Below are positions 11,234-44,460 of a stretch of DNA of 64,000 bases, piece after piece. The notes under the pieces are model-generated. The model had not been told where the DNA came from and ran no database searches. It saw only the letters and a list, made by a program, of their open reading frames with translations. Both the position numbers and the translations under genes were made by a program. Each line of letters opens with the position of its first letter. The stretch's first letter is position 1. This DNA is from Alligator mississippiensis. Its lineage: Eukaryota; Chordata; Crocodylia; Alligatoridae. Location: assembly GCF_030867095.1 (NCBI RefSeq), contig NC_081828.1, positions 210,868,978 to 210,932,977 on the forward strand, in the 5' to 3' direction.

Positions 11234-11239
11234 TTTATT
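11234..11239 (-). terminator. Candidate polyadenylation signal for unit 1
   Basis: An AATAAA hexamer on the minus strand lies about 540 bp past the stop codon of the 924-aa ORF. It is the nearest such hexamer I found downstream. No clear GU-rich element follows, so the call is weak. Confidence 0.3.
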
Positions 11240-11777
11240 GCTCTGTGGAATGAAGGATGCAGAAGATGTTCTCCCAAAGTCTACCTGGGACTCAGGAGGG
11301 CAGGCTGAATATGAATTAGTGCTTCTGGTGTCCGCAGCTGAGTGCTAGGGTATGGGCTCTTATCCAGCTTCCACTGAAGCCCATGGGGAGAGTCAGTGTT
11401 GCTGACTCTCATAATATTTGGTGTTTTTCCCTCCCTTAAATCTCCAGCTCCTGGAGTCAAGTGCATATATCGGAAATCACAGATTTCATTAAAAAAAATA
11501 AGTCAGCTTCTCTCCCACGCGGGGGCAGAGAAAAATTGTAAGCACGATCCCCTGAAGGCTCCTAAGCCAGAAGGCAAATAAAGGCAACCCCCAGTACATT
11601 GTTCTTTCGTCCTGAAACCTTGTGGGTTGAAGCCAGCCGTGCCCTTGTTTTCAGGTTGGCTTGACTTTAGGTCGCTCTGGGTTGGCAGCGCCGGGAGTGG
11701 GCTCTGGGCTCCCTTTCCTGCATGAGCTACTGGATGACGTTTTTGTAAGCACATCTTGCTCTGCTAGGGACCAGTCA

Positions 11778-14552
11778 TCATGGGACCGGCAGGATCTCGT
11801 AGCCGTCTGCATTGACCTCCGTCTTCACCACGATGACGGGCCCGTTGTGCTCGCCCATCTGCTGCTCCCCGCCCGCGTTGGGCCTCTCTGCCGCATCCTT
11901 CCCATCCGCAGGAGGGTCCTTCTTCTTCAGGTGGTTCCTCTGGTGCCTCTTGAAGTGCCCCACCGTGGTGTAGCTCTGCCCACAGTCCGAGCAGATGAAG
12001 GGACCCCGGCGTGCATGGGTCAGCTGGTGCTTCGTGAGGTTGGCTTTCTGGGAGAAACTTTTGCTGCACTGGACACACTTAAACGGTGCCTCACCCGTGT
12101 GGATTCGCTGGTGGGTGATGAGGATCTCTTTCCTCTTGAAGTCCTTCCCGCAGGTGTCGCATTTAAAAGGCCGGTCCTCGGCATGGGAGGGCTGGTGCAG
12201 GAGCAGCTGGGCCCGGTCGGGGAAGACGTGCCCGCACTTGTTGCACCGGTTGGGCTCGTACTTGGTGTGGACCCGCTGGTGGGTGATGAGGGCGATTTCC
12301 TTGCGGAAGCCGCGGCCGCACACGGGGCAGGGGAACGGCCACTCCTCCCCGGGCTCAGCCTTGTAGTTCTCCCCGCACTTGGAGTACTTGTAGAGCTCCT
12401 GGGCTGGCTTGTGCTCCCGGGTGTGGACCCTCTGGTGGGTGGTGAGGGCGATCTTCTGGGTGAAAGCCCTCCCGCAGGCGGCACACTGGAAGGGACGCTC
12501 ACCCGTGTGCGTCCGGCGGTGCACGATGAGACGGGACTTGTCGATGAAGCTCTTGGGGCAGTCGGCGCACGGGAAAGGGCGCTCGCCTGTGTGGATGCGC
12601 CGGTGCACCACCAGCTGCGCCTTCTGCGTGAAGCTCTTCCCACACTCCTCACACCCGAAGGGCCTCTCGGCCGCGTGGAGCCGCTGGTGGCTGGCTAGGT
12701 TCTCCTTCGTGCTGAAGCATTTGCCGCACTGGCTGCACCCATGCTCCTTGCCGCCACTGTCCTCAGGGGTGCTCGCAGCCCGCTCGCCCTCAGGGTGCCC
12801 ATCCAGCTTGGCCCTCTCATGCACCCGGTGGTGCTTGACCAGCGCGATCTTCTGGCGAAAGCCTCTGCCGCAGACGGCGCAGGGGAAGGGGCGGTCCCCG
12901 GTGTGGATGCGCCGGTGCACGGTGAGCCGGGACTTGTCGATGAAGCGCTTGCCGCAGTCGGCACACGGGTAGGGCTTCTCACCCGTGTGGATGCGCTGGT
13001 GGGTGACCAGCTGGGTGCGCTGGGTGAAGCGCTTGCCGCACGGCCCGCACGCGTAGGGCTTCTCCCCGGTGTGGATGCGCTCGTGCTTGGTCAGCTCCCC
13101 CCGCTTGCTGAACGCCTTGCTGCAGACGCCGCACCGGTGCACCCGCTCCTCCGCGTGGGCCCGCTGGTGGTTGGCCAAGTTGCCTTTCTTCGTGAACGTC
13201 TTGCCGCACTGGGGACACGTGTAAACCTCGCCTTTCCGTGGCACCGCTGCGGAGGAGTCCACTTGGTGGCCACCACCTGCCCCATTTTCAGCAGGGGGCT
13301 TCCCTTCTGTGCCCCCGTGAGCTCCTGCCTCACTGGGGCTCCCCTTAAAAGCCCCCTTCTCCCTGTCATGGACCCTTTGGTGGGCTGTGAGGCCCACCTT
13401 CTGGCTAAAGCTCTTCCCACACTCGCTGCACGTGTGGGGCCCCTCACTTGAGTGGTGGCATTTCTGGTGCCGCAGCATCTCCCCTTTGCTGCTGAAGCTG
13501 TCCCCGCACTGGGCGCAGACATGGGCATGCACGCGGGCGTGGGTCCTCTGATGGCGGATGAGGTGGATCTTTTGGCGGAAGCCCTTCCGGCACTCGCTGC
13601 AGTGATACGGCTCCTCCCCAGTGTGGATTCGCTGGTGGGTCACCAGGATGGACTTCTTCTTGAACGCTTTCCGACACGTGCTGCACCGGAATATCCTCCC
13701 CCCGTCCGGCGTGGACTCGGGCACGATGAGCCGCGATGCGTCGCTGGCAAGGGACCCGGGACCGCTACGCCGGCATGCCCCGTCCCTGCTGTGCACCCTC
13801 TGATGTTTGATCAGGGTGATCTTCTGGCGGAAAGCCCTGGTGCAGAGCCCGCATTGGAAGGGGCGGTCGTCGGTGTGGATGCGGCAGTGGGCGACCAGCT
13901 GAGACTTGTCGGCGAAGCTCTTCTGGCAGCTGCCGCACGGATAGGGTTTCTCACCGGTGTGGATTCGGCGGTGGACGATGAGCTGCGACTTCTGGGTGAA
14001 GCTCTTCCCGCAGTCTGCGCAAGGATACGGCCTTTCTCCAGTGTGGATTCTCTGGTGCTCCTTCAGCTGTGACTTGGTGATGAACCTCTTGCCACAGTCG
14101 GTGCATGGGAAGGGTCTCTCCCCTGTGTGAGTCCTGAGATGCTTGGTGAGGTCCACCTTCATCTTAAAGCTCTTCTCACATTCAGGGCAGGAGTGGGGCT
14201 TCTCCTTCCTAGGGGCTTCCTGAGACACTGAGAGGTCTCCAGCTGGATTTTGGACGTCCTTGCTGCTCTCCTCTTCCATTTTCACGACCTGCTGGATCAT
14301 TGGCTGAGCTGCTGGGTCAATGCTTCTGTCCTGCTTGTGCCCATCTGCCAGCACCTCCTCCTTGTGGGTCTTTTGATGTGCGGCCAGAACACCCTTATGG
14401 TTAAAACTGTCCCCACAAATAGTGCAGGTGTACGACCTCTCCCGGGGGTGTCTGATCAGATCTTCCACCTCAGTGAGCTCCAGCTTAATCACCGTCGGGT
14501 TCTCCATCCTTTGGTTTCTTGGAAACTGGGCCTCAGCTGGCAGGGAGTTCAT
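11778..14552 (-). CDS. C2H2 zinc-finger protein, 24 fingers (unit 1)
   Basis: This is a probable nuclear sequence-specific DNA-binding regulator of 924 aa. Finger 1 lies near residue 42. Fingers 2-6 (about 120-260), 7-10 (292-405), 11-15 (451-591), 16-19 (614-726) and 20-24 (757-890) form blocks joined by TGEKPY/TGERPF-type links. A remnant at about 735-750 (YKYSKCGENY) has lost one Cys and both His. SUMO-type motifs are VIKLE (21-25), VVKME (89-93) and VVKTE near the C terminus. No KRAB, SCAN or BTB domain is present. The start is the first ATG after an in-frame TAA that touches it. The ORF sits in one exon whose acceptor is at 14,699. Base composition is GC-rich, as usual for finger exons. 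The family assignment is certain; the orthologue and the target DNA are unknown. Confidence 0.93.
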   Translation of the reverse strand: MNSLPAEAQFPRNQRMENPTVIKLELTEVEDLIRHPRERSYTCTICGDSFNHKGVLAAHQKTHKEEVLADGHKQDRSIDPAAQPMIQQVVKMEEESSKDVQNPAGDLSVSQEAPRKEKPHSCPECEKSFKMKVDLTKHLRTHTGERPFPCTDCGKRFITKSQLKEHQRIHTGERPYPCADCGKSFTQKSQLIVHRRIHTGEKPYPCGSCQKSFADKSQLVAHCRIHTDDRPFQCGLCTRAFRQKITLIKHQRVHSRDGACRRSGPGSLASDASRLIVPESTPDGGRIFRCSTCRKAFKKKSILVTHQRIHTGEEPYHCSECRKGFRQKIHLIRHQRTHARVHAHVCAQCGDSFSSKGEMLRHQKCHHSSEGPHTCSECGKSFSQKVGLTAHQRVHDREKGAFKGSPSEAGAHGGTEGKPPAENGAGGGHQVDSSAAVPRKGEVYTCPQCGKTFTKKGNLANHQRAHAEERVHRCGVCSKAFSKRGELTKHERIHTGEKPYACGPCGKRFTQRTQLVTHQRIHTGEKPYPCADCGKRFIDKSRLTVHRRIHTGDRPFPCAVCGRGFRQKIALVKHHRVHERAKLDGHPEGERAASTPEDSGGKEHGCSQCGKCFSTKENLASHQRLHAAERPFGCEECGKSFTQKAQLVVHRRIHTGERPFPCADCPKSFIDKSRLIVHRRTHTGERPFQCAACGRAFTQKIALTTHQRVHTREHKPAQELYKYSKCGENYKAEPGEEWPFPCPVCGRGFRKEIALITHQRVHTKYEPNRCNKCGHVFPDRAQLLLHQPSHAEDRPFKCDTCGKDFKRKEILITHQRIHTGEAPFKCVQCSKSFSQKANLTKHQLTHARRGPFICSDCGQSYTTVGHFKRHQRNHLKKKDPPADGKDAAERPNAGGEQQMGEHNGPVIVVKTEVNADGYEILPVP

Positions 14553-14684
14553 TTAAGGGTCTTTCTTACCGTGGCCTCCAACTCTCTTGGCCTGCCGTGG
14601 CTCGAAGGGGTTTGAGACCCAACTGAAGTGCCGACGTCGGTTTTCATTGCCCGCGTTTGGAGAACAGTTCTTGCTTCTTTTCAT
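14553..14684 (-). CDS. Upstream ORF abutting the zinc-finger start
   Basis: This is a 43-codon ORF in the leader of the unit 1 exon, beginning MKRSKNCSPNAGNENRRR and ending in TAA directly against the main ATG (TAAATG). It is in the same frame as the 924-aa ORF. It lies wholly downstream of the predicted acceptor at 14,699, so it would be in the mature leader. It could limit translation of the finger protein or feed reinitiation; stop read-through would add a basic N-terminal extension. Its translation is not shown, and the peptide matches no family I recognise. Confidence 0.5.
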   Translation of the reverse strand: MKRSKNCSPNAGNENRRRHFSWVSNPFEPRQAKRVGGHGKKDP

Positions 14685-14698
14685 GGATCCTTAAATCG

Positions 14699-14724
14699 CT
14701 GGGTGGAAAAAAAGAGAAAATCAG
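14699..14724 (-). other. Splice acceptor of the unit 1 finger exon
   Basis: Read on the minus strand, a pyrimidine tract (TTTTCTCTTTTTTTCC) is followed by ACCCAG, placing the exon start at 14,698. This leaves a leader of 146 nt before the main ATG. A strong donor-like GTAAGA at 14,569-14,564, just before the main ATG, could instead close this exon after 129 nt, so an extra splice form is possible. Confidence 0.6.
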
Positions 14725-16110
14725 TCAAATGCTGTTTCGAAGGCAGATGGGCGAAGAAGAGTCAGGGCTGTGGTTGTACATTTAGATCAGTATATTTAAT
14801 GAAGGAACCTGTTAGTTTTCAATTTGACTATAACTGAACTATTGCGAATAGTCGGGATCCTACGGGAGCGCTCGAACGGGCTTCTACTGCCCCAGTTTTT
14901 ATAGGAGGGAAATGCACAGGCTGCGATTTCTCTTGCTGTGCACTGCTATGACAGCGTTGTAGCCAAGCACTTGTTTCAAAGATGTAAGCACTGACCCCAC
15001 ACGGGCCCTTTGGGACGGTGATTGTGCAGGACCAAGCACTGCTACCTCAAGTCCCTCCGTACAGATGGGACGTGAGAGCGCTGCACCTGCACCTGCCCCC
15101 CACGCTGCAGACGGGAGTGGTGTCATGAGGCTGTTTGAGAGAGGAGGGCCGGGACGCACTGGGCTGCCCGTGCCCCTGGGACTAGCAGTCCTGCTGCATG
15201 CGTGGTGGTATGCAAAGGTGAAATAGGTAGCATGCAGCTGGATGGGCCAAAGGATTCACTTCCCAGGGGCCATAGGAGAGCATATGCTGTAAAACCCAGG
15301 TGAAGCTGCCTCCATGGAACAACTCCAGCTGTGTATGCCCCCCTCCTTGCTGAGCGACCCATTCTCTATTCACCTCTGCGTGACTATTCATCTGGCCGGC
15401 GGAGCAGCACAGAGGCCTGGGGAGGATTGCATGGCACGGCTTCCTCTTCATTAGCCTTCTTTCTCATCACATGCCACAGCAAGGAACCCAGCAGCAGCGT
15501 ATCTTAGTGGCAAGCATGCAAGACATGCTAGTCCAAATGGCCCCATGCCGCTTCTTCCAGTAAGTCATGGGAACGCTGCAGACCCCCGACCCTAGTAGAC
15601 CTGCGTGGCGTGATGAGCTTCATCTCAGAGGTCCCGTGCTTTTCGTCACACCCCTCTGCCTGCGAGTTTGTTTTTAATGCACACCAAAAACCCCCCGAAG
15701 ACTAGCAACAGCAGGCAGCAAGCGAGAGCAATGGCCAGAAGCCCGGGTCTGTCTCTCAGCTGCAAGCACAGCCCACAGTAAGCAGAAATGAAACTAGCAC
15801 TTACGCCCCCAATGTGCCCAGTCTGGCTAAAAGCAGCCTCCCAGCAGGCACCCAAGTGATTCAAAGCAAAGGTGGAGGAGTCTGGGGGGGCTGGGGTATC
15901 TGAGGGCCACTGGCTTCTCGGACACAGGGGATAGCTAATTCCTCCTCCCTCCTGCAAGCTAAGTGGGAAACTAAGCGAGGCTCAGACTTACCAGCTGATA
16001 AAAAAGACAGAGCCCAGACAGGGGATGGGGGAATGACCCCTTTCCCCCTCCCCTCCCTCTGCTGAGAGCAGGAGCTGGAGGAGTCATCCCATTCACCAGC
16101 AGTAGTAGGC
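14725..16110. other. Presumed intron of unit 1, part
   Basis: No exon, repeat or conserved motif is visible. It would lie inside the intron joining 17,975 to 14,699. Confidence 0.35.
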
Positions 16111-16126
16111 TCTTATCCTCTTAGAT

Positions 16127-16459
16127 CAGTGGTTCTCAATCTTTTCTAAAGCTGAAGTCTTCCTTCAAGAAATGCCAGCTCATAGCTTTCACCTGTTCAT
16201 TCACAGACATTTAGGGCCGGAAGGGACCTCGCGAGATCAGTTCTTGACTGTGGAGAGCGATTCGACTCAGAAAGACCCTGGCAGGGCACAATGTCGTGGA
16301 CACTATGGATTCCTACTTGAAATCTCGGAGTTCGTCTTGTGAATCAGGCGCAGGGGATTGCACACCTAATGGTGCTAATATTGTGCAGCACTCAGCGGCA
16401 CCCTTAAAAGGATCTCACGCCACCTCAGGGTGCTTCAGCACCCTCCTTGAGAATCACTG
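16127..16459. mobile_element. hAT miniature element
   Basis: The ends CAGTGGTTCTCAATC and, inverted, CAGTGATTCTCAAGG are hAT-type. The flanking octamers TCTTAGAT and GGCTAGAT share their last five bases, a worn target duplication. The body (CACTATGGATTCCTACTTGA, TAATGGTGCTAATATTG) recurs at 33.4 and 56.9 kb. A short CR1-tail-like piece (GGGCCGGAAGGGACCTC) lies inside at about 16,210. Confidence 0.65.
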
Positions 16460-16580
16460 GGCTAGATGCATCAGATACATTAGTGAAGGGAAACCAGCCC
16501 CTGCTGAACCAGGTGGGAACGATACCCTGGGAAGAGCCGCTCTTGCAGGCAGTGGGTTCAAGGAGGTGTCGGGGGGGGGG

Positions 16581-16876
16581 TGTCTACAGGTGCACATTTA
16601 ATGTGCATTAGCTCGATTTAAGGCACATCTACGTGTGCATGCCCTTAATGCACCTTAAAAATGGTGATTTAAGGCTATTCGAGCCTATATTTGATACGTG
16701 CATAAAGCAGGTATGAAATTTATGTGCGAATACCTAAATCGCATTAGTGAACAGGTAGATGCACTAATGTGCATTAATGCAGCATGTATCCATTGACTTG
16801 GGAGTAACGTGAGTCCCAAGTCTGTCTGCATACCCACGTTCATGTGCATTAGCATGTGCATGTGTGGACGCGCTCT
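16581..16876. mobile_element. TIR miniature element, family B
   Basis: The ends TGTCTACAGGTGCACATTTA and, inverted, GTCCACACATGCACATGC pair. It shares the core TTTGATA...GGTAT(G/C)AAATTTATG with the element at 34.0 kb. It is non-coding and the superfamily is not assigned. Confidence 0.5.
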
Positions 16877-17968
16877 GGAAGCCTAGCTGGGCACCTCACT
16901 CCTCAAGTGCCATATGGCCCTTAAAGTGCCACACTCCTTGGATCCCTTCTCTGGATGGTTCATATCTAAGACCATGAAGGAAGAGCCCTTCCCAGTCTGC
17001 ACTCCCAGCAGCCAGGCTCCCTCAGCTGGCTCCGCTGCAGAGCGCCAGCCGTCTCAGCTTCCCTCTCCCGGTCTTGTTTGATCACCTGGCGATAAGCCTC
17101 ATGCCACATAGGTCACTCCGTGGTGGAGCATTTGGGGACCTTTGCACAAGCATCTGGGATCCCGAGGCACTTCTCCAAAGCACGGGAGCCACCTTTGCCC
17201 TGCAAACTTGTGTTGTTTGTGGTCTGCTCCCCTCCACCCCAGAAGCAGCTGCATTTCACCAGCGCGGTGGGAGTTTAGTCTGGGAAGCATTTGTGGGGGC
17301 ACTAGGTGTTTGGAGCTCCATCCCCAGCGGCTGGATCACTCGCTCTGCTTTCTTGCTCACTGTGTGACTGCCCTGATCTCCCCTCTCGCTCACACTCACA
17401 CGCACCCACACAGCAGCTTCGGCAAAGCACGTCACCTTTGTCTGATGCCTGAGACTCCCTCCCTGCAGCCAGCGCTCGCAGGGCAGGGTGGAATTTCCCC
17501 AGAGCATCGTTTCAGACTGCCCTTCCAAGCTCAGTTTCCCTTGCTGTGCTTTTCTTTTTTTCTCTCCTTTTTTTTTTTAACCTACCCAAACCAACAGGAG
17601 GTTCTGCATTTTCACAGGGAAGCGGAGAGCTGGGAACCCCGGCTGTGATCGCTTGCAAAATCCCAGCAGCCGGGTAAGGGGACGGATTCCAAGCTGCAAA
17701 ATGTTTCTGCCTTAAAACCAACCTGTTTCAACACTGGTTTCACGGCAGCCACCAAAACTTCCAGCCATTTCCTGGTTCAGCCCGGTGCCTGTCCTGGGCT
17801 GCTGCAAACATGCACAGAAGTTTTCTGTGCGGGTCTCCCCAAAGATCTCAGAGTAGCCATGTCCTTACCTGCGTCTCCTTTCCTTCAGCGGGAAGGTTTG
17901 AATTCAGCGATTGTCATTGCCCAGATTTCCCCCTTTCCACACACTTTTGTCTCATCATCTTCTTCTCC
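16877..17968. other. Presumed intron of unit 1, upstream part
   Basis: Includes a pyrimidine tract at 17,545-17,580. ORFs here show no conserved domain. Confidence 0.3.
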
Positions 17969-17969
17969 C

Positions 17970-17975
17970 ACTTAC
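17970..17975 (-). other. Splice donor GTAAGT of the unit 1 first exon
   Basis: Minus-strand AGAGAA/GTAAGT lies immediately after the conserved block of the promoter module. Joined to the acceptor at 14,699 it would define an intron of about 3.3 kb. Confidence 0.45.
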
Positions 17976-18240
17976 TTCTCTAATGTCTGCTGTGCTGACT
18001 CACAGGAAGTCTGTGTCAGTGATGTAAAAACTACCGGGGGGAGGGAAATCGGAGAAAGAGGAGCTGATGCCAGGAGAAGAGGGGTTAGGAAGTGGGAAGA
18101 GCTGGCAGAATCTGAATGGGCTGCAATAGAGGCACGCCGCTTGGCCGGCCAGCCTGGGATGCCCCCTGGTACCACCGCCTCGCTCAGATGCTGCTCGCGG
18201 GGGGCATGCTCGCTGGCAAGGCCCTGCTGGGAGATGTAGT
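17976..18240 (-). promoter_or_regulatory. Promoter and first-exon module of unit 1
   Basis: On the minus strand a box ACTACATCTCCCAGCAGG (18,240-18,223) resembles the ZNF143/STAF (SBS) site ACTACAATTCCC, often found at vertebrate promoters. About 190 bp downstream is a block of about 50 bp (18,040-17,989) containing CCGGTAGTTTTTA, CACAGACTTCCT and TCAGCACAG. The same elements recur in the modules of units 2 and 3. The block runs into a consensus donor GTAAGT. The module is GC-rich and 3.4 kb upstream of the finger ORF on the same strand. Calling it the unit 1 promoter plus a non-coding first exon is inference. Confidence 0.55.
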
Positions 18241-24275: not shown

Positions 24276-24288
24276 CAGCACAGGAGTT

Positions 24289-25426: not shown

Positions 25427-25700
25427 CAGGGTTGCCCAAGAACACAGAGCTGAGGCGTAACACCGACCCCTCCGTTCACCAGACCCACCACCCTCATCCC
25501 CAGCTCTGCCCAGTCCAGGATGCAAACTGCATGCAGCTTGGGTCCTGGACGGCCAGAGCGGGTGCTGGATCTGTGATGGTGGGAGAGAGCTATAGGTCTG
25601 ATCTGGCCAGCAGGGCTGCCCCTGCATCATTCCTCGGGTGTGTGAATTGGTCCGGCATCACTCATCCGGCCCGTGGGATAGATGTGTTGGACACCCCTAC
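25427..25700 (-). mobile_element. hAT-like miniature element
   Basis: The left end CAGGGTTGCCCAAG and the inverted right end TAGGGGTGTCCAAC are hAT-like inverted ends. The right part has GGCCGGACCAATTC-type sequence on the minus strand. No clear target duplication is seen. It lies just downstream of the unit 2 pseudogene. Confidence 0.45.
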
Positions 25701-25739: not shown

Positions 25740-26830
25740 TTCTCCACCGCCACCGTGGTGTACGGCCTGGCCTCGGCGCATAACGCCCAGTGCTGGTTGA
25801 GGCTGGACTTGCAGGTGAAGCTCTTCCCGCACCGGAGGCAGACCTAGGGTCTCTCTCCAGCGTGGCCCAGCTGGTGCCTCCTCAGGTGCCCGAGGGCACC
25901 GTAGCTCTCCCCACATTGGGTGCAGATGAAGGGGCGCTGGCGGGCGCGGATGAGCCGGTGCCTGGCGAGGTTGGCCTTCTGGCAGAAGACCTCGCTGCAC
26001 TGCGAGCACGGGCAGAGCTTTTCTTGGGTGTGGACCCACTGGTGCATGAGGAGGGTGAAACCCCTTCTGCAGTCCAGGCAGGCAAACAGCGTGTGCCCAC
26101 CTGTGTGCTGGGAGCTGGGACTTGTCGGCAAAGCGCTTGGGGCAGTGGGCACGCAGGTGCAGGTGCGCTGGTGGGCGAGGACGTCGGCTCTCTGTGCAAA
26201 GCACTTGCTGCATGTGGCGCATGGGTATGGCCTCTCGCCCGTGTGCGTCTGCTTGTGCTGGGCCAGCTGGGACCTCTTGAAGAAGCGCTTGGGGCAGCAG
26301 CCACTCGCCCCGGTGTCTGCGCTGGTGCTTGCTGAGGTTGTCTTTCCTGCTGAAGCCCTTCCCGCAGTCGGGGCAGACGTGTGCCATCCTTCTCCTCAAG
26401 CCTCCCCTGGTGCTGGAGGGAGCTCCTTGCCAGCTTTCCTCCTCTACTTCATGTTGCACTTGTGTTTCTCCTAGGCTGGCCAGGTGCCTCAGACCCTCGT
26501 CTCATCAGGGGCCTTGGCTGGACCATGACACCTCCTGACCCGTTTTAGGGGTGGCCTCTTGTCACATCTCCCTGGCCCCCGGCTTCTGGGACGGGCTGTC
26601 TCCTGTGGGTCCTCGGATGGGCCGTGAGATTCCCTCCCGAATAAAGCATCTCGCACATTTAGCACACGCGTGCACTCTTTGTTCCCTGTCCACGGTGCCA
26701 GAGCTCTTCTTCTCTCCATCACACCCACCTGGTGGGGGTGTCAAACCTCTCTTCTGCTCACGTCTTTCCCTACCGTTGGAGCAAGCGCCTGGTCTTTCTG
26801 TTGCCTCCAGTTGTGCATTTTCCATTGCAG
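25740..26830 (-). pseudogene. Broken C2H2 zinc-finger gene (unit 2)
   Basis: Remnants of about nine fingers lie in shifting frames. A finger near 26,670 (HACAKCARCF) has lost its His residues. HVCPDCGKGFSRKDNLSKH near 26,380 is intact. A frame change follows it, and a further open stretch runs from about 26,300 to 25,844. Inside that stretch one finger (CPKRFADKSQLPAH, near 26,120) is readable only in another frame. Other fingers have lost residues (RRGFTLLMHQWVH is shortened) or zinc ligands (second His changed to Cys or Arg). A TAG replaces the linker before the last finger (VCLRCGKSFTCKSSL). The order KANLxxH, PFICxxCGxSY, GHxxRHQ matches fingers 23-24 of unit 1, so this is a paralogue. 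It is almost certainly not a working gene. Confidence 0.85.
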
Positions 26831-29748: not shown

Positions 29749-29749
29749 C

Positions 29750-30595: not shown

Positions 30596-31680
30596 CAGTA
30601 TACAGCTGTCTGGACATGCCAGTATAACTATGCCAATATAAGTCCCTTTGTGGACACCCTTATTCTGGAATAAAAGCAACTTCATTATAAAGTGATGTCT
30701 GGCATACTTACAGCAGCATAATTGTGTCGCTTCACGATGTATATTCCACTTTCCCCAAGTGAACAAGCATGAAAAGTTGGAGAAATCCTATAAATCAACG
30801 GGATTTCTCCTTTTGTTAATGTTTGGCAGGCTGTTAGCTGTTTTCCTGAATCAGGACATGTATGAAAATTATGACACAAATATCCAACCTTAGTAATAAT
30901 ACTTTACTCATCCAATGAGCTGAGGACATACAAACACAGTGACACTAAACTTGAGAAAACACAGTAGCTGCATGGAGTGAAACAGTGCATTAATGGATCT
31001 GTGCTGTCAGCAGAGAGAAACTGAGATTGCTAAGAAAAATACATGCACCCGTGCATCCCTCCTACAATAAGCTGCAGTGCTGAAGATGGACCGGGCCCAT
31101 TCAGTTCATGCAGTTTGAAAATTGAACATAGAAAGCTGATTTCCTTCACCACAGGGGAATGCTAACATGGCAGATGTTAAACAGAAAAAAGCTGGAAAAC
31201 ATTAAAAAAGAGTCAATCCCTTGCAAGTGAGCAAATATCATCATTTCTCTTGGCAATCTTGTGGTCGTGGAAAAACTGTCCACAGCAAGCTTCCAGACAT
31301 ATGCGAAGTGGCACTAAATTCAGTAGTTGATTCTGATGGCAAATACCCAAGAGAGATTTAGCCACAGTTTCTAGGCATGCACTATTCTGTTGATCAGCGA
31401 TTTCAAGCCTGGATATATCCACATAGCAAAAAATCTTTCACTTTTTCTGTCTTTGTGCATTGAAACGGCCGTGTAAACAGACAAGATGCTCACTGCCCTC
31501 AGCTCAGCTAAGGGGAAATACTGGCTCCAGGCATTTACCTTTTATTCTTTCAGAATTAGCAAGTGGAGGGCTTTTCAGGTACCTTGGCAGCAAAAGCAAT
31601 GCAGACCTGGCTTTTCCTCACACATAAAGACGGACGCCAACATATGTTGTCTGTCCTGCCAGTTCTGCATCCCCCAGTGT
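30596..31680. other. Non-coding, presumed unit 2 intron
   Basis: No exon or repeat is recognised. Confidence 0.3.
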
Positions 31681-31963
31681 CTGTGGTGCTGAGTAACGAG
31701 AAGTCTGTGCCAACACTATAAAAACTACCGGGAAAAAGGTAAAACACAAGGCAGAGGAACAAAGCCAGCATGCCAGGGGGGAGAGGGAATGGGTGCTGGA
31801 GTCTGCGGGGTCTGTACAGTGGCTGGGCCCACAGGGCCATTGGCACTGCCAGACAGCATCTATTCGGAGGGTGCCAGGGCAGGAGGTAACCCAACGGCAG
31901 ATGCACAGAGCCCGCTGGAGCGGAGCGAGCTTGGCTTGGTGGTACCTGGTTGGGAATTGCAGT
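31681..31963 (-). promoter_or_regulatory. Decayed promoter module of unit 2
   Basis: The module shares CCGGTAGTTTTTA, CACAGACTTC and TCAGCACC with the modules at 18.0 and 44.2 kb. Its SBS-like box reads ACTGCAATTCCCAACCAGG (31,963-31,945), with the central A changed. After the conserved block there is no GTAAGT or GCAAGT at the matching place. It lies 4.9 kb upstream of the finger pseudogene on the same strand. I infer it was the promoter of that gene. Confidence 0.45.
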
Positions 31964-32648: not shown

Positions 32649-32653
32649 ACACT

Positions 32654-33124: not shown

Positions 33125-33364
33125 CTATAGCTTTTCTCTCAATAACTTGCTCATATGCTCACACTCTATCCTTGTTTTGTGTTGTCGTACAGATAACATT
33201 TGTATAGATAAATAATTTGTACAGATAAAAAAAGTACCAGTCCATTTGAAAATATGTTAATGCTGGATTTTCAAAGCTCTTGATGCAAGACCTAGAGCTC
33301 TGCTCCATGTTGCTTGGTTTTTAACTACAGAAAAATGCTAGAGAAATTCTTGTTGCAAAGAACT

Positions 33365-33545
33365 CAGAAAGCCCATATCAGGGCAAGATGTTTTTGACAC
33401 TATGGATTCCTCTGGGAAATATCTGGGTTTATCTTGAGGATCATGTGTAGGTGTTGGAACACTTAATGGTGCTAATATTGCACCCCCCCCTTAAAAAGAT
33501 AGTGTGAAACCCCAGGGTCCATGATACCCCGGTTGAGAATCACTG
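33365..33545. mobile_element. hAT miniature element, left-truncated
   Basis: ACACTATGGATTCC, TTAATGGTGCTAATATTG and the end GGTTGAGAATCACTG match the element at 16.1-16.5 kb. Confidence 0.6.
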
Positions 33546-33587
33546 CTTTAGAGCTACAGCAAGACATCTGAATATCACCCCTTCTCC

Positions 33588-33612
33588 CCCCAGCTCCAGC
33601 TCCAGCTCCAAC
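33588..33612. repeat. (AGCTCC)n short repeat
   Basis: Three to four units. Confidence 0.8.
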
Positions 33613-34005
33613 AGGGACAAGGGAGACCATTTCCTTATAAATAACTAACACTAAACGTTGCAAGGTGTCCTATCAGCTTCCACATAGCAGTTATTCCTAT
33701 TACAGCAGGGTAACTCAACACACATCATCTATAGTTAATATAAATTGTAAATGGTTTTTGTGCTGTGTATTATGTTCTGTTGGGTAGGGTAGAATGCAAA
33801 TAACGTGTACATGTAGTCTATATGATATATATTAGAAAGTAATCCTTTTCATCCGCACGTGACAACCGGGTTGACTCTCACTGCTTAGACCTGAAGGAAA
33901 ATGTCTTGCATTCAAAAACTTGTCTAACTCTATCTCAGCTGTATAGCTGTTCTGATAAAAGAGATCACCCCCTAAGAATTCCTTGCAATTTTAATTGAGA
34001 CACTG

Positions 34006-34378
34006 AAGGCATGTCTACAAGTGCACATTTATGCTCAGTAACTGAAATTACGGCACAGTACAGGCATGTGTCTGCATGTGCACACCCATACTGCTCAGTA
34101 AATATGGTGACTTATGCCAGCTTGAGCGTAAATTTGATATCTGTATCATGCAGGTATCAAATTTATGCCGGATTAGTTACTGTATAGATGTCTTACTGTA
34201 TAGTAACTCTGTGTGTGTGGACTAACTTGGTCTAACTTTAGTCCTAAGTCAGTCCACATACAGCGTTAATGCACTTTAATGCCTGCATGTACAGACACCG
34301 GCCTATTCCCACTTACTGCGCAGTAATTTACTGCACAGTACATTTAAGCTGGTGTAAATGCACATGTAGACATGCCTT
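34006..34378. mobile_element. TIR miniature element, family B, 373 bp
   Basis: The left end AAGGCATGTCTACAAGTGCA and the inverted right end AAGGCATGTCTACATGTGCA are almost identical over about 25 bp. The core TTTGATATCTGTATCATGC, GGTATCAAATTTATG matches the 16.6 kb copy. It is non-coding. Confidence 0.75.
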
Positions 34379-34862: not shown

Positions 34863-34874
34863 CCCCTGCTGTAA

Positions 34875-36385: not shown

Positions 36386-36389
36386 TGGA

Positions 36390-36865: not shown

Positions 36866-39800
36866 TCTTTGTTAATTCTCTGAACTAAGCATCTTGGTGA
36901 AATGAGATTAATTTGGCTTTGCCTATAATGAATGTAGCATGTGCGGGGAGACAGGACACTGACTTGGACTCTAAACACCCAGATAGTTGGGCAACGTCAA
37001 ATAACTTTTGTTGTGAACTGCAAGTTGCATTGCTAAAAAAGTACCGTGATTTTTTGTGTGTTTGCTCTATATTGTCGTGACAGGACTTCCCCTGTGACGA
37101 GCCAGCTAGACCTCAAGGGTGACCTATAGCAAATAAAGGAGGAAGTTAAAACTTGAGGCCATGAGCATCTGACGCTATCAGCCACAGTGCAGTCTGCTGT
37201 TACTGCAGTGAGAGGGGATATAAGGCCGACTTGCTGTAGGTACCAGGGAATTTATCCCTTCAGCTAGGTCCTTGAAAAGGTTCTCCCAGCCTGGCAGATC
37301 CTCAAGGTACCAAGGGGACGCTATTCATCCCCTCACCATCCCCCCTGGAGACCTTGTTCATGGCATGTCCATAGAAGAAGCTTCCATGAGGTCTTGGGGA
37401 ATAGCAAACAGTGACTTTTATGTGGCCTTTCCCATCAGTCAATCTCCAAATATTTTACAAAGGAGGTCAGCATTGCTGAGCAATGGGGATGAGCAGAGGG
37501 CTCCAAGTCTGGGTCTCCTGAGTGCTAGTCTAGGACCTCGGGCGTTGCATCATATTAGCTATGCGTCCGCAGTGCTGTCTGTCTCGGCGTGCTTACTGAC
37601 ATATGCTCAGGTGGCTATGTTGTCTCATTACAGGGATTTGCTCCATGCGGTGTAGAAACGAGTGGATGGGGGTGATGCCTGGGGCAAAGCACGAAGGACG
37701 TGTCAATGTTGTATTCATCAGGTGTTGCATTGTGGGAACTGGGAGGTATGGCTCCCTGAGCATTGGCTACAATGAGTATTGGTCAGTGCTGCCAAACAGC
37801 GGAGACTTTCTTTTTCCCAAATACTTTAATGAGATGTAACAATCAATCAGCACTGATTTTTGCCCCTCGCACTGAACGCTGTACGCTCTCCTTGCTCTGT
37901 GATACTAGGCTCAGTTACATCTGAGAAAGCTGACTGGCTGCTCAAGGGCAGCGTATTGTCCTGGCTCTTTTAGTGATGCTCAGACTGCAAATGTCAAGCA
38001 CAGCTGCCTCCTCCTGGGTAAAAGCATTTGCCTACAAATCTAGTCTAATGGTAAGGAAGCAATTGCATTCAGACATTCAGGGGATAATGCACCTCCCTGC
38101 TATATGGCCCATCCCGGACAGGCCTAGTGTATTGTTTTGGATGCCCTGCCTGGCTCCACCATGTTGTTTTAATGCAACACAGTCTCCACGCTCATGAAGC
38201 TTGATGGTCTACCCAAGTTGCCTTCACTCCCCCTTCTTGTGGACCTTTCCACGACACACAAAGTGGGTGCTACCACGCAGGAAACACACAGATACACCAT
38301 ATCTCCTAAGCAGCTTCCACATGCATGGTCCTTATAGACACCCCAGGCAGCAATTAAAGTTGTTTTCCCCTGTACAATGGCCAACATGAATACCCACTTG
38401 GACTCGGTTGCCCCTGAAAAAGAATATAAAAGCCACAATGTGTGCAACACTCCTTGGGGAAGGGTGATTTCATTTGAGACACAAAAGCAGAGGTAGAACT
38501 AACAGCTAATAACCCGAGACACTTCTTGATTCGACGCTCAGACTCCTACAACTATGACAGCTACCTGGTGAACCTGAATGCACACCCCTGATCTGCAGCC
38601 TATGTATAGTCATGTAACAACATTGCTAAAAACTCTTTGGGTGGTCGGTCTCAGAGTATGGCCCCAATGGTCCCTGGTTCTGGTCAGGCTGGGTTTTTAT
38701 TAAGTCTCCTATGAGTCCACCACATTAAAAATCCCTTGTTTTAGGGAGTATACCCCATTATTAAAAAAAAAAAAAATCAGCTAAGAGCAGTAAAGAGTGG
38801 TGAGCTCTGAATATGCCCCGAAGAACCTAGCAGCTGCCATCACGCAAGCAAAACCAAACCACATCTACCCACAAGATAAAGGGTTTTGGGTTGTCTGCTC
38901 CGTAGTTTCCAGTCCATGCAGTCTGCTGCCAAGTTGCAATGCTTTTGATTGCTTGTATCAAGTCCCTAAATAATGCCCAGTAAATCCCAAACCCCGTCGA
39001 GTGTTTCTCAGTCACATTAAAGGGGAAAAAAATAGGTAGTAAGGATCAAGAATTGCATTGCTCATCAGCTCCTTATCCTTGTCTGCTGGAGCTGGGGATG
39101 TCTCTGCAGCATCTCATGTTCTTAAAGGCAGCTTCTGCTAGTCACAAATACCAAAAGCTTCCCTTGTATATGCCCAAGCAATGCGATATAGGCCCCGTAT
39201 AACAGAGCAGAATTTGTTCACCGTCAGCCAAGCTTTTGAAAATGGACACTGATTTTGCATATCTCAGTTTTAGCTACTCGGCTCAAGACCTCTTTTTTGC
39301 CCCGAGCATGACTTGGGGTACCCAGTGCTGAAAATGTTGGCCTACGTGTGTGTGCTGTGCTTTACCCTGCACCTGAATCTCCAAGCTAGCTTTTGATACA
39401 GCTTTTGTTTCAACGGGACTAATGCCCGTGTCAATAAAATTACAGGAGTGAGTCTCATTTCTAAGATCACAGCTTGACTGAGAAATCGCCAACTATAAAT
39501 AAAGACTTTCATTTGCTGTTGGATAGATCCGGCCTATACAAGCTGGAGTAGCTTTTGGAGTCATTTGGGCATAATTCGACCTTCTCAAAAAGTGCAAATC
39601 TCCCATTAAGGGTGCTGCTTATCCCTACATCTCAAAGCGCTTTCCAAAGGAGGTTGGCATCACCTTATGTCTGGGGAAACTGGCCTAAGGTCATCCAGAA
39701 ACCCCACTGCTGCACTGGGACTTGGCCCAGGGTGTCCCCAGTCCCAGCTTGATGCTTTGCTCAGCAAGCCGAGCGTCTCCCTTTGCTAACATCAGCAGAA

Positions 39801-39870
39801 AGTCTGCACAAGTGAGGGCAGCAGGATTCAGTCCTTACTCTTCACCTTCCCGTGCCAGCTTTCCTCCCGT
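36866..39870. other. Non-coding, 3' side of unit 3, faint SINE pieces
   Basis: Segments at 37,430-37,540 and 39,620-39,740 recall SINE/MIR tails (CTCAAAGCGCTTTCCAAAGG). An A(14) run lies at 38,761. No exon is seen. Confidence 0.3.
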
Positions 39871-39878
39871 ATGGAGCC

Positions 39879-41843
39879 TCACCCGGAGACATTCAAGCTG
39901 TCCTCGCTTTTCACGGCAGTGAGCGGTCTCTGCTCCAGGTGGGTGGGATGGTGGTTGCTCGTGCTTTTGGCTGCGCCAAGACCTTCTCCGCGTCTCGCTC
40001 GCACACTGGGCTCCTCCCTCAGGTGGATTTTCTGGTGCCTCCTGAGATATTTCTTCAGCCTGTAGCGCTTCCCACACACCTGGCACTTGTAGGCCCCTCC
40101 TCTGGAGTGAAGCGCTTGGTGTTTAATGAGGTGGCGCTTTTGAGGGAAGCACTTCCCGCACTTGGTGCACTTGCACGGGCCCATCCTGATGTGGATGGAC
40201 TGGTGGCGGAAGAGGTTGGCTTTCTGATTGAAGGTCTTCTCGCACTCGGGACACTTGTATGGTTCCTCCTTGGTGTGGATCCTCTGGTGCCGGACGAGGT
40301 TGGACCTCTGAGTGAAGCTCTTCCCGCAGTCCGTGCATTTGAACGGCTCGCTCATGTGGATCCTCTGGTGCCTGACGAGCTTCCGGTTCATGCGGAAGCT
40401 CTCCCCGCACTCGCTGCACTTATACGGCCCCTCGCTGGTGTGGATCTTCCGGTGTCTGGTGAGGTTTGACTTCTGGTTGAAGCTTTTCCCGCAGTCAGGG
40501 CATGGAAAGATCCTTTCCTCTTTGGGAGCGTCGGTCTTGATCAAGGGACTTTTCTTGCTTTTAGCTTTGGCCTCCTGACTCTCCTTAACTGTACTGGGAG
40601 ACCCTCCTTTGCTGGGTTGCTGGCATTTCTTTTGCTTTTTCTTTGGGCTGCAGCTTTCCCCACTTCCAGCATCCATCCCGGGTTCTTCCTTGATCTGGAT
40701 TCTCTGGATGGTGCTCTTCTGACCGAAGGGGCTGGTGCGGTCTGCGCTCTCCTGAGGTTCGTCCTTAATGTGGGGCTCCTTGTACGTTGTGAGGTTGCTG
40801 ATCTGGGCATCGCTCCCCGCACGTTCATGATCTGCATCCGTTTCCTTCTTAACCTTGATTCCCGGGGGACTAATGAGAGGTATCTTTGGATCGAACTGGC
40901 TTTCCCCATCGGTGCTTTCCTGCGGTTCCTGCTTAATGAAAGAGATCTGATGTGCTAGCAGAGGGACGTTGGCCTCCTCTTCAGTGGACGCATCTGGTTC
41001 CTCCTTTGCCCGGATGTCCCAAGGGATCTTTGGACTGCACCGGTTTCTGTATTCAATCGTTCCTGGGATCCCATCTCCTGAAGGAGGTCCTTGCACTGGA
41101 GTATTCTCCATCGGGTTAAAACTGTCCCCAGCTTTGAAGGCCACATCTGGTTCCTCTTTAATCTGGATGACCCGGACAGACATGCCATTTGCGTGCCTGC
41201 TAGCACCGGATGGCCTCTGCTTGGCGTGGTTTTTTTGGTGGACATTAAAGTACCTCTTGGTGCTTAGGCTTTTCCCACACTCCGTACAGATGAATGGGCC
41301 TCCTCGAAGGTGAACCTTTTGGTGGGCCACCAAGGTGGCACTCTGTCCAAAGCACCGGCCACAGTCGGTGCATTTAAATGGCTTCTCCCGCTTGTGGATT
41401 TCCTTGTGGGCTGTCAGGGTCCCCTTCTTCACAAAGCTCTTCCCACAGTCCGTGCATGCGTACGGCCTCTTCTCTTTGTGGGTCCTCATGTGGATGTTGA
41501 AGTAGATCTTGGTGCTGAGGTTCTTCCCGCAATGGGGGCAGAGGTACGGCCCGCCCTTTGCATGCGTCTTGCGGTGAGCGGCCAGGCAGATCTCCAGCCT
41601 GAAGCACCGGCCACATTCATGGCACTGGAATGGCCTCACTCCCGTGTGGATGCTCTGGTGGGTCGCCAGGTGTCCCCTCGTCGTGAAGCGCCTGCCGCAG
41701 TCCCCACACGTGTGCAGCTCTTCGGCCGTGTGGATCCGCTGGTGCCTTTTGAGGTTCCCGTTCTTGCTGAAGCTCTTGCCACATTCTGGGCACAGGTGCG
41801 TCTTCTGCACCGTGCGCTTGGCCGGCCTGGCCAGATCCTTCAT
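39879..41843 (-). CDS. C2H2 zinc-finger protein with SUMO-motif linker (unit 3)
   Basis: This is a probable nuclear DNA-binding regulator of 654 aa with 13 fingers in two blocks: 1-7 (about 17-210) and 8-13 (about 440-607). The linker of about 225 aa carries IQIKEEPD, IRAKEEPD, FIKQEPQE, IKVKKETD, HIKDEPQE and IQIKEEPG, and the tail has AVKSED. Five of the six linker motifs and the tail fit the SUMO consensus (hydrophobic-K-x-E); most also fit the I/V-K-x-E-P synergy-control motif known to restrain activators. A lysine-rich run (PKKKQKK) near residue 400 may be a nuclear signal. Fingers 4 and 7 have Leu where the core Phe is normal (CGKNLSTK, CGKSLSTK), and fingers 2-4 look duplicated as 5-7. 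The ATG follows an in-frame TGA at about 41,884 and has A at -3. No KRAB, SCAN or BTB domain is present. The orthologue is not recognised. Confidence 0.93.
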   Translation of the reverse strand: MKDLARPAKRTVQKTHLCPECGKSFSKNGNLKRHQRIHTAEELHTCGDCGRRFTTRGHLATHQSIHTGVRPFQCHECGRCFRLEICLAAHRKTHAKGGPYLCPHCGKNLSTKIYFNIHMRTHKEKRPYACTDCGKSFVKKGTLTAHKEIHKREKPFKCTDCGRCFGQSATLVAHQKVHLRGGPFICTECGKSLSTKRYFNVHQKNHAKQRPSGASRHANGMSVRVIQIKEEPDVAFKAGDSFNPMENTPVQGPPSGDGIPGTIEYRNRCSPKIPWDIRAKEEPDASTEEEANVPLLAHQISFIKQEPQESTDGESQFDPKIPLISPPGIKVKKETDADHERAGSDAQISNLTTYKEPHIKDEPQESADRTSPFGQKSTIQRIQIKEEPGMDAGSGESCSPKKKQKKCQQPSKGGSPSTVKESQEAKAKSKKSPLIKTDAPKEERIFPCPDCGKSFNQKSNLTRHRKIHTSEGPYKCSECGESFRMNRKLVRHQRIHMSEPFKCTDCGKSFTQRSNLVRHQRIHTKEEPYKCPECEKTFNQKANLFRHQSIHIRMGPCKCTKCGKCFPQKRHLIKHQALHSRGGAYKCQVCGKRYRLKKYLRRHQKIHLREEPSVRARRGEGLGAAKSTSNHHPTHLEQRPLTAVKSEDSLNVSG

Positions 41844-41910
41844 GGTGTCAGTGGTTGGTGTGCGGACACGATCCCTTTGTCAGGGGGACCCCTCGTTCGC
41901 ACGGCGGCTG

Positions 41911-41940
41911 CTAAAGGAGCCGGCAGGAAGAAAGGAGCCG
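41911..41940 (-). other. Splice acceptor of the unit 3 finger exon
   Basis: The minus strand shows CTCCTTTCTTCC, then GGCTCCTTTAG with the exon starting at 41,910. A CTAAT branch-point-like element lies about 45 bp further upstream. The leader to the ATG would be 67 nt and contains no other ATG. Confidence 0.45.
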
Positions 41941-42730
41941 TGGTGTTACAGGGGTGGGTGATTAGGAAGGCAGGCAAAGAGAAGCTGTAGGAGCCATCAG
42001 GATGCGGTAGCAGAAGGACAGCTGATGTCCCATAGCTTTGTGGATGGAGAGGAGAAATTGCCGGTGTTCGGAGACTCAGATACTGGGGTCGTGTGTGGGG
42101 CAAAGTAGTGCCGTTTCCTCCCTAGCTGGCATTTTACCACCGCGTCTTCTTCTAACGCAACATGGGGCCACTCTCTTCACATTCATAACTCCATTCCCAG
42201 ACTGTTTCTCGAGGGGCTCCTGTACATCATATCCCTGCTGAGACTTCTCAGTCAGTCCTGGGCCTTAGTGTCCTGCATTAAAATAGAAAAGAAGTCAAGA
42301 TATTATTCCTTCTGTTACTGATGTTGTTTTTTCATGTGAGAAGAATAGCTGCAGGCTTGAAGCACGGGGAACCAAACCGGGGACCTTCTGCGCTGCAAGC
42401 ATGAGCTATCATAGCTCCTGTTAAAGTTTCCAGAGGTGGGGTGGAAACACTCATGTCCGTTGTGGACCAGATGTATAGGGGGATCTGTCAAGCACTCCCG
42501 CTCTCTCTTTCTCTTGCATGCTTACTCATTTCCTCTTTCCTGGTAGCTTTTGTCAAAATGATTTACAAACACTAGTGAATTAAGCAAGTCCAACAGAATC
42601 GATTCTGACCAAGGCCATTATTCAGACATGAAGAAAAAGGTGCAGGGAGGCCAAAACATGAAAAAAATTAGGACAAAATCCAAGTTGACAACACACGCAG
42701 AACTCAATCCAAGCACTGCTCATGGGCAGA
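41941..42730. other. Presumed intron of unit 3
   Basis: Pyrimidine-rich near 42,500. No exon is seen. Confidence 0.3.
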
Positions 42731-42734
42731 TCGG

Positions 42735-42835
42735 AGAGTGCTTTGGAAGGCAGAGCCTGTATTTCCATTGTGCAGATGGGGAAACTGAGGCACGGTGAGA
42801 TTGAATGACTCAGTCAGGGCCCTATAATGAGTCAG
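42735..42835 (-). mobile_element. MIR-type SINE fragment
   Basis: CAGATGGGGAAACTGAGGCA and TGAATGACTCAGTCAGG are the inverted MIR core. Confidence 0.55.
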
Positions 42836-44138
42836 GGGTGCAGCCCATGCAACATGGCTGGGACGTAGTGCTACAGGAACATGGAGAAAATCATTTCCTA
42901 GGATGTCTATGAGTCCCACCTGGGAAGGAAATGTGGAGGTGGTAGTGAGGAAGGTGGGGTTACTGGAAGATGCTGTTGCTGCGGGTAGAGGATACTGGGA
43001 AATGCTCTTAAGCAGGGTTCAGGTGGCTGGGGGGAGGCTGTGGCTGAGTTTATGGGTTAGGATTGTGGAGGGGTTTAAGGCAACAATCTTCTTGGTACAT
43101 GAATGCTTGGAAAGCCTGGGGTAAGCAGGGTATATAAATAATACCTAGATACAGCAATCCCAGCGCAGCTGGAGCACACCTGTGGGGGGACGAGGTGCTA
43201 GCACACAGCGCTCAGATACAGAGGATCTGTAGGTAACAAGACAGACGGGTACAGCAGAAGAAAACTATTTTTGACACTGCTGCATTGAATGTCATTTTGC
43301 CTCTAGGTACATAGGCTCAGCACCCACTTAAACCAGTGAGATCCACCACTTGCACATGGTATAGCAGCATTTTTCTCTGTTAATTGCTTCAAATATGCTA
43401 TGGAGTAACAAGGTCATGGAGAAGAGGTTTCCCTTTAATCAGAGGAAGAAACAACAATGATCAAAGTCATGGCCTGATGTCAGTGTGTAGAAGGCCTGTA
43501 TTATTTCTAAGCAGAACAGCAACGGCGGGAGCCTGACTGTGATTAGCATGATACCTATTAGAAATGGGTGCTTTAATTTACTAGCCAAAGGCATAACAGT
43601 ACCCAGGGGCTGGAAAGGAAGTCGGTGAAGTTTCAAAGCATATTTTTAACAGCAGAACGACCAGCGATGCCAGGCAGGTCTCCATCAGTGGGAATCATTC
43701 AGGCAAGACGGACTCTCTTTGTCAGACAGATTGCTGTGGATCAAACACATGTGATTTGGCAAGAACCACTGGGAAGGATGCCACCGCCACTGTGTTATAC
43801 GGGAAGTCAGACTCTCTTCTGACATTACGATCTATGCAAATCTCTGTTGTTCAGCATGTTGCCGGCAGTGTTTCAGCCGCTTCCTCCTTATGCCAAGTGC
43901 GATTTATTGAATCCACATCGGCTCAAAACCATGCTACATTTTCTAGCATGCAGGGATCCTACGGGACCCCGCTGAACCAGGCAGGGAAGAATCAGATCCC
44001 GGGGACTGTTATCGCTGGGGTTGTTATGCAAAGTACAGGCACGAGAGGGTTGAAAAAGGCCTTACCTGAGCAATCCATGCCTCCAGGCAGGATTTCCGTC
44101 CTCCCTGGCAGTCCAAAAATGTTTGCGACTTGGCTACA
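42836..44138. other. Presumed intron of unit 3, upstream part
   Basis: No recognised feature. Confidence 0.3.
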
Positions 44139-44144
44139 ACTTGC
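44139..44144 (-). other. Possible GC-type splice donor of unit 3
   Basis: CTGCAAA/GCAAGT sits where unit 1 has AGAGAA/GTAAGT, so the donor may be of the rare GC-AG class. Another donor nearby is possible. Confidence 0.3.
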
Positions 44145-44460
44145 TTTGCAGTCGCATCTGTGCTGACCTAAAGGAAGTCTGTGGCCAGTGCAGTGAGAGC
44201 TACCGGAGGAAGGGTGAACGAAACAAAGACAGGAGCGAAGGCTGCGTGCACAGGGGGAGCAGAGGAGGGGATGCGGGAAGCAGGCAGAGCTGCAAGGGCT
44301 AGGGATGCTGCTGGGATAAGGGCAGCAGGCGCGGGGGTGCGGTGGGGAAGAGAGGCACCAAAAATGCCACCGAGCTGCCTTTCTTGGGCACCGTTAGATC
44401 CGGGATTGCTTCTTCTCTTGGAATGGTCTCAAGCTCGCATTGCCTTCTGGGAATTGTAGT
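44145..44460 (-). promoter_or_regulatory. Promoter and first-exon module of unit 3
   Basis: On the minus strand ACTACAATTCCCAGAAGG (44,460-44,443) is a near-ideal ZNF143/SBS-type box. About 240 bp downstream is the conserved block (44,205-44,157) with CCGGTAG, CACAGACTTCCT and TCAGCACAG, shared with the modules of units 1 and 2. The module is 2.3 kb upstream of the 654-aa ORF on the same strand. The role as promoter plus non-coding first exon is inferred from position and from the three-way similarity. Confidence 0.55.

Follow-up and report, generated by a model that had tools for sequence, protein, structure and literature searches.

Does a row of three zinc-finger loci in Alligator mississippiensis descend from a single gene, and what has become of its middle member? 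The loci, here called units 1, 2 and 3, lie in a 64,000-nucleotide (nt) stretch of contig NC_081828.1 (C5:210,868,978-210,932,977), which we refer to as the window and which we compared with the rest of the 2.35 Gb, 195-contig genome. A first-pass annotation of the window had proposed three minus-strand finger loci, each with an upstream promoter-like module, that arose by tandem duplication and of which the middle one is dead. In our reading, to which we assign a probability of roughly 0.72, the units form an old, isolated tandem trio in which an ancestral SBS promoter and 5'-untranslated region (5'-UTR) exon would have been kept by selection while the spacers drifted and the coding part of unit 2 died.

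A pattern scan found C2H2 fingers in the window on the minus strand only and in three places, at about 11.8-14.6, 25.8-26.4 and 39.9-41.8 kb. Each place has its own upstream module, at 18.0-18.2, 31.7-32.0 and 44.1-44.5 kb, respectively, and all three units point to the low-coordinate end of the window. The block search described below agrees with this layout, which is the one first proposed; the module spacing, given then as about 13.7 and 12.5 kb, measured 13,694 and 12,474 nt. The pattern scan found no finger array within 100 kb of either edge of the window, only 4 isolated single matches, 2 of them with internal stops, which rules out that the array is part of a large local cluster. Elsewhere in the genome finger matches are numerous (C1, C2, C7, C11, C15, and C5 beyond 219 Mb). 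No flanking genes were identified from the open frames.

A conserved module upstream of each finger locus

The sequence CACAGACTTC was found at three sites in 264 kb (the window plus 200 kb of surrounding DNA), one upstream of every finger locus. It sits within a block that reads, in every unit, CCGGTAG, 15-16 nt, CACAGACTTC, 7 nt, TCAGCAC; the three elements of this block had been named in the first-pass annotation and were seen in all three units.

18015-18006, 31709-31700 and 44183-44174, minus strand: copies of CACAGACTTC (exact search)
17984..18123, minus strand: unit 1 conserved module, core block 18037-17992 (alignment, BLAST, pattern search)
31678..31814, minus strand: unit 2 conserved module, core block 31731-31686 (alignment, BLAST, pattern search)
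44134..44300, minus strand: unit 3 conserved module, core block 44206-44160 (alignment, BLAST, pattern search)

Genome-wide, the pattern CCGGTAG-N14-17-CACAGACTTC gave 3 matches, all in the array, on one strand and within 26 kb; the reversed-pattern control gave 4. A 32-mer of the block, searched with up to 3 mismatches, was found in units 1 and 2 only (control, 0), unit 3 escaping this search owing to a 1-nt insertion. When the 451-nt module of unit 3 was used as the query in a genome search that skips very common words, its one match was itself. The module was not found in the flanks, only about 1.5 kb each, of nine other finger loci, and we found no description of the block or the array in the open-licence literature.

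Local alignment of 800-nt stretches under two scoring schemes, with 300 dinucleotide shuffles per pair, bore out the likeness of the modules: all three pairs beat every shuffle under both schemes. With the first scheme, units 1 and 2 scored 50 (largest shuffle, 32), units 1 and 3 scored 57 (37), and units 2 and 3 scored 43 (39); with the second, the scores were 36, 39 and 31 against shuffle maxima of 19, 19 and 20. The margin is narrowest for units 2 and 3. Genomic 800-nt controls (127-157 segments per pair) reached at most 30 and 19 under the first and second schemes, respectively.

We also compared the three units by BLAST with the fingers masked (E<=1). The module of about 140-170 nt was the sole in-register match outside the fingers, with 64.8% identity over 142 nt between units 1 and 2 (unit 1, 18123-17984) and 66.1% over 171 between units 1 and 3 (unit 1, 18122-17965). 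At this threshold units 2 and 3 gave no module match, and spacers and introns gave no in-register match among the units; aside from two out-of-register repeat matches described below, remaining matches, with E of 0.31 to 0.84, were chance-like. Apart from the box described below, the ancestral signal is now limited to about 150 nt.

To our knowledge, the block of about 50 nt resembles no general promoter box; the GGAA-type core within it is presumably ETS-like. The modules are not CpG-island-like in composition. Within the window such composition marks the finger exons of units 1 and 3 (11950-14150, 40100-40600 and 41450-41950), but neither the modules nor unit 2.

An SBS/M4 box upstream of the block

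The window was scanned, together with shuffles, for an SBS consensus of 19 places, ACTACAWYTCCCAGMAKGC. An SBS/ZNF143-like box had been ascribed to all three modules. This held for units 3 and 1; in unit 2 the box is a relic with 5 mismatches.

18222..18240, minus strand: unit 1 SBS/M4 box ACTACATCTCCCAGCAGGG, 1 mismatch
31945..31963, minus strand: unit 2 worn SBS/M4 box ACTGCAATTCCCAACCAGG, 5 mismatches, TGGGA intact, ACTACA half altered
44442..44460, minus strand: unit 3 SBS/M4 box ACTACAATTCCCAGAAGGC, 0 mismatches

Matches with up to 3 mismatches averaged 0.27 in shuffles; the window contains one additional match at that limit (plus strand, 43933; 3 mismatches). The unit 2 box is the best of the 210 positions upstream of the block, with a chance expectation of 0.009 in a 61-nt slot and about 0.03 in all 210 positions scanned. 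The boxes lie 225 (unit 1), 254 (unit 2) and 277 nt (unit 3) upstream of CACAGACTTC. Against 500 shuffles of the box regions, only 2 were as good for units 1 and 3, and likewise for units 1 and 2.

The M4 motif, ACTAYRNNNCCCR in PMC5006282, is fully matched in units 1 (18240) and 3 (44460), and these are the sole M4 sites in the window. The array resembles the SBS/M4 promoters (ZNF143, THAP11-HCFC1) described there in that units 1 and 3 fit both M4 and the longer SBS consensus, the latter with 1 and 0 mismatches; it differs in that unit 2, with ACTGCA instead of ACTAYR, does not. The TGGGA core is assigned to ZNF143 fingers 5 and 6 in PMC11118474, where the start of human ZNF30 is also reported to shift upon ZNF143 degradation. 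Because ACTACA has become ACTGCA, the unit 2 box has, by its letters, lost the THAP11 module while keeping the ZNF143 core TGGGA.

The SBS box is a common genomic element, because the exact 19-mer occurs at 125 sites genome-wide compared to 0 for the reversed control. Among the 100 of these 125 sites listed, which end before the C11 and C15 finger clusters, two (C7 1.27 Mb and C5 219.16 Mb) have finger genes no more than about 0.2 Mb away, and the box is unsupported as a special mark of finger clusters. Near-identical stretches, GTGGACTACAAATCCCAGAGGCACCTGGAA, occur in opposite orientations about 59 and 22 kb outside the window (L009 near 630 and L017 near 2357) and seem to be an M4-like box riding on a repeat.

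Finger proteins

The coding parts of the three units are as follows:

11778..14552, minus strand: unit 1 finger open frame, 924 amino acids, ATG at 14552, 24 C2H2 matches, 3 psi-K-x-E SUMO-like sites
25760..26381, minus strand: unit 2 finger remnants, frame shifts near 26300, 26150 and 26090, in-frame TAG near 25845
39879..41843, minus strand: unit 3 finger open frame, ATG at 41843, 13 C2H2 matches divided into a group of 7 and one of 6

In the pattern scan the finger matches span 14426-11931 in unit 1 and 41792-40023 in unit 3, and Pfam PF00096 was detected with E values of 1.1e-121 and 1.4e-73, respectively. Units 1 and 3 carry tandem fingers in one open frame, as C2H2 polydactyl genes do; unit 2, with its frames broken, does not. 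Solved structures matched at E<=1e-20 comprise 18 sequences, finger proteins such as ZNF568, PRDM9 and CTCF. Searches for KRAB, SCAN and BTB domains were negative for the finger frames and for 68 of the 73 upstream minus-strand frames of at least 35 amino acids in units 1 and 3, the five left out overlapping finger exons. As far as the frames tell, both genes are without detectable KRAB, although a more distant or shorter exon could still encode one.

A genome search with the unit 3 protein gave 415 matches, each row being a stretch and not a gene, with 67 of 2,231 candidates scored. The best match elsewhere was on C11 (51% identity, 168 bits); for the unit 1 protein the best elsewhere, among the matches listed, was on C2 (217 bits). 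Among the matches listed, both proteins score higher with other contigs than with each other; whole-finger similarity therefore fails to group the trio, units 1 and 3 included.

Finer traits were compared with nine finger genes (loci L026-L034), the best unit 3 matches elsewhere. We found K or R at helix position +1 in 22/24 fingers of unit 1, 9/13 of unit 3 and 2/3 of unit 2, compared to 19/179 in the nine other genes, where 17 of the 19 fall in two genes. 'GP' linkers account for 2 of 18 in unit 1 and 5 of 11 in unit 3 versus 1 of 165 in the comparison genes. This contrast is expected to be understated, because the comparison genes were chosen as the best unit 3 matches. The pair of unit 2 fingers before the TAG has its best match, among eleven proteins compared, in the end pair of unit 1 (169; next, 137). 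These finer finger traits suggest a grouping of the trio in part.

Repeated multi-finger blocks, about 73-74% alike in DNA (e.g., 12820-13096 and 13792-14068), occupy the region 14068-12415 of unit 1, a sign of within-gene duplication. None of the 11 short linkers of unit 3 is of the strict TGE[KR]P type, and 5 of its 6 psi-K-x-E SUMO-like sites lie in the spacer of about 240 residues between the finger groups, a profile that is unusual for a DNA-binding finger array.

Predicted exon structure

Donors and acceptors were scored with splice-site weights and ranked among the 6,509 GT and 9,655 AG sites of the window.

17867..17868, minus strand: unit 1 likely exon-1 donor CAG/GTAAGG, 7.43, tied at rank 6 of 6,509
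31537..31538, minus strand: unit 2 best post-block donor AAG/GTAAAT, 4.66, rank 56 of 6,509
44064..44065, minus strand: unit 3 likely exon-1 donor CAG/GTAAGG, 7.43, tied at rank 6 of 6,509
14569..14698, minus strand: predicted start of the downstream exon in unit 1, with the acceptor preceding 14698, rank 3 of 9,655
41910..42272, minus strand: unit 3 candidate acceptors, before 42272 (rank 8) and before 41910 (rank 304) of 9,655

Because the best donors lie 118-171 nt past the start of CACAGACTTC (147 in unit 1, 171 in unit 2, 118 in unit 3), the core block is probably inside a non-coding 5'-UTR first exon. The donor called worn in the first-pass annotation had been given no position. If the GT within the block was meant, a far better donor lies further on: the in-block GT scores 2.77 in unit 1 and 1.7 in unit 3 versus 7.43 for CAG/GTAAGG and was rejected as the main exon-1 donor, and the donor of unit 2 is weaker, not lost. 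A second candidate donor in unit 1 (4.25) is found 40 nt past the CACAGACTTC start. The acceptor at 14698 precedes the unit 1 ATG by 146 nt; an internal donor at 14569, CACG/GTAAGA, has a fair score (4.64) and is unexplained.

Stretches of about 130 nt in units 1 (14698-14569) and 3 (42272-42138), each with a strong acceptor before it and a GT at its end, are weakly alike (7 of 500 shuffles as good) and may be a relic second exon. In unit 1 (14685-14553) upstream frames have stops that abut or overlap the finger ATG (TAA/ATG and ATGA), and in unit 3 (41843) there is an ATGA stop/start contact if the 41910 acceptor is used. These contacts in both live units resemble termination-reinitiation.

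Wear of unit 2

The pattern scan found four C2H2 matches of unit 2 in two frames (26375-25778), one finger having lost 4 residues, and a further possible remnant was seen by eye at about 26680-26600. The module is retained about 5 kb upstream of these broken fingers. With frame shifts and an in-frame stop in the coding part and a promoter module kept at a distance, unit 2 has the sequence hallmarks of an unprocessed pseudogene.

The wear is uneven. Private changes in units 1, 2 and 3 number 3, 10 and 11 in the core block, 5, 23 and 21 in the box region (alignment A1), and 12, 29 and 20 between box and block. Losses specific to unit 2 are the change of the ACTACA half-box to ACTGCA, that of ACTTCC in the block to ACTTCT, and the weaker donor. 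Worn box, donor and finger frame had been taken as three signs of one loss. The frame shifts and the TAG bear out the worn frame, the half-box is altered, and the box-block stretch has more private changes than in unit 3; as a single loss, though, this was put too strongly, given a core block no more changed than that of unit 3, an intact TGGGA and a donor that is only weakened. On sequence grounds, the pattern fits recent death or some remaining use.

Remaining use could mean that unit 2 has been re-used, its module starting a non-coding transcript or serving units 1 and 3 as an enhancer or insulator. The block of unit 2 opens with 14 letters identical to unit 1 and its divergence is not above that of unit 3, the TGGGA core is kept, and the donor at rank 56 is usable. 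However, both ACTACA and ACTTCC are altered, 5 of the 19 box positions differ, the box-block stretch has changed more than in unit 3, and a recent death would look much the same; we regard re-use as unlikely.

Probable descent from one gene

The three loci lie on one strand, are adjacent and share array-specific non-coding sequence, the features by which tandem duplicates are recognized. Descent from one ancestral gene has support from the module, which the genome-wide searches found only here, from a strand and order common to all units, and from odd finger traits that units 1 and 3 have in common. The duplication itself is old, because spacers and introns have no in-register match at E<=1 and the unit 3 protein is nearer to other loci. 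Of the earlier proposal of tandem duplication, common ancestry is thus upheld, with the qualification that the event is old and that whole proteins do not unite units 1 and 3.

Several results weigh against the reading of an old tandem trio. With the unit 3 query, unit 1 first appears at row 56 (122 bits), below 54 rows from elsewhere, and units 2 and 3 are absent among the listed matches of unit 1. The lone short linker of unit 2 is not of the GP type (0/1), and the unit 1 end pair scores 159 with unit 3 versus 152 with the best of the nine other genes, a small margin. The box regions of units 2 and 3 show no likeness (91 of 500 shuffles did as well), and the exon-1 sequence past the block shows none in the three unit pairs (31, 264 and 56 of 500). 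The two acceptor candidates in unit 3 allow more than one exon structure, and a core block no more diverged in unit 2 than in unit 3 is odd for a long-dead gene.

Alternatively, ordinary finger genes of a large family might have been set side by side, with modules that are alike by convergence on an SBS/ETS-type promoter. The generality of the SBS box fits this, as does the failure of whole-finger similarity to group units 1 and 3. Nevertheless, genome-wide searches found no other copy of the block of about 50 nt, which is not known as a general box, the alignment covers 140-170 nt, and unusual linkers and helix residues are common to the fingers of units 1 and 3, so that we consider convergence unlikely. 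It is very unlikely that the modules are copies of a dispersed element that landed upstream of each finger gene: other repeats do occur in the array (e.g., 16.3-16.9 versus 33.4-34.3 kb, out of register) and M4-like boxes can ride on repeats, as the near-identical copies in L009 and L017 illustrate, but the genome-wide block, 32-mer and module searches led us to reject it, the only three block copies found lying in the array on the gene strand, the unit 3 module matching only itself, and the block-to-SBS distance being similar in each unit.

A proposed history

The following history of the tandem trio is inferred as regards where transcription starts, how the RNA is spliced, which factors bind, what selection kept and in which order parts were lost. 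The ancestor would have been a C2H2 gene without detectable KRAB, with an SBS/M4 promoter and a non-coding first exon, and two old tandem duplications would have produced the three units. In each unit, transcription would most likely start no more than about 200 nt downstream from the SBS box; that box may be bound by ZNF143 and/or THAP11-HCFC1. The RNA would pass through the module of about 140-170 nt as 5'-UTR and, in units 1 and 3, would be spliced from the GTAAGG donor, 118-147 nt past the CACAGACTTC start, to an exon holding the whole finger frame. The promoter/5'-UTR module would have been retained by selection; introns and spacers, meanwhile, would have drifted until no longer recognizable, and the fingers would have diversified. 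Later, the reading frame of unit 2 would have been lost, its half-box and donor being weakened and not erased. Our best reading is a family without detectable KRAB under birth-and-death evolution.

We think it quite improbable that the array is controlled through the block of about 50 nt, as an element of its own and a target common to all units, instead of through the SBS box. If so, the unit 1 and unit 3 finger proteins might themselves bind the block, and dead unit 2 would be a third target copy, gene loss leaving a working site in a self-regulating array.

Relation to known systems

Birth-and-death evolution with tandem duplication is the model argued in a mammal-wide survey (PMC2443715). 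As described in that survey and in work on human 8q24.3 (PMC2865497), clustered C2H2/KRAB-ZNF genes resemble the array in clustering and copy loss. In contrast to such clusters, the array is an isolated trio with no KRAB exon detected, and its kinship signal lies largely in the promoter/5'-UTR module, not in the fingers. The 8q24.3 promoters, which share ETS-family and Ikaros sites, are CpG-island-like according to PMC2865497; the array modules are not. V1R receptor promoters (PMC1955453) are likewise kept among local tandem duplicates, but they belong to a different gene family and are conserved over about 1 kb, compared to 140-170 nt here. In another finger gene, too, a non-coding first exon holds a conserved stretch without coding function downstream of the start. 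That element itself holds SBS sites, whereas the SBS boxes of the array lie 225-277 nt upstream of the block.

Because mutation and recombination change finger arrays so fast, kinship inside clusters is hard to read. Here an array-specific promoter/5'-UTR module appears to tie together three diverged genes where whole-protein comparison fails, and we suggest first-exon modules as family markers for old zinc-finger clusters. Unit 2 may also be a small case of promoter sequence outliving its gene.

Other repeats in the window

A dispersed repeat, represented at 16265-16863, 33318-34290 and 56810-56925, lies out of register in units 1 and 2; it accounts for two matches between these units that are stronger than the module. 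An inverted pair (3198-3663 and 33102-32652; 66% over 492 nt) is likely another dispersed repeat. Self-complementary stretches at 52637-52804, 59859-59981, 57525-57587 and 25500-25562 resemble small palindromic transposons. Finally, reverse-transcriptase remnants in two opposite orientations lie at 57790-59777 (Pfam RVT_1 in the window's frames), and we take these frames to be CR1-like.

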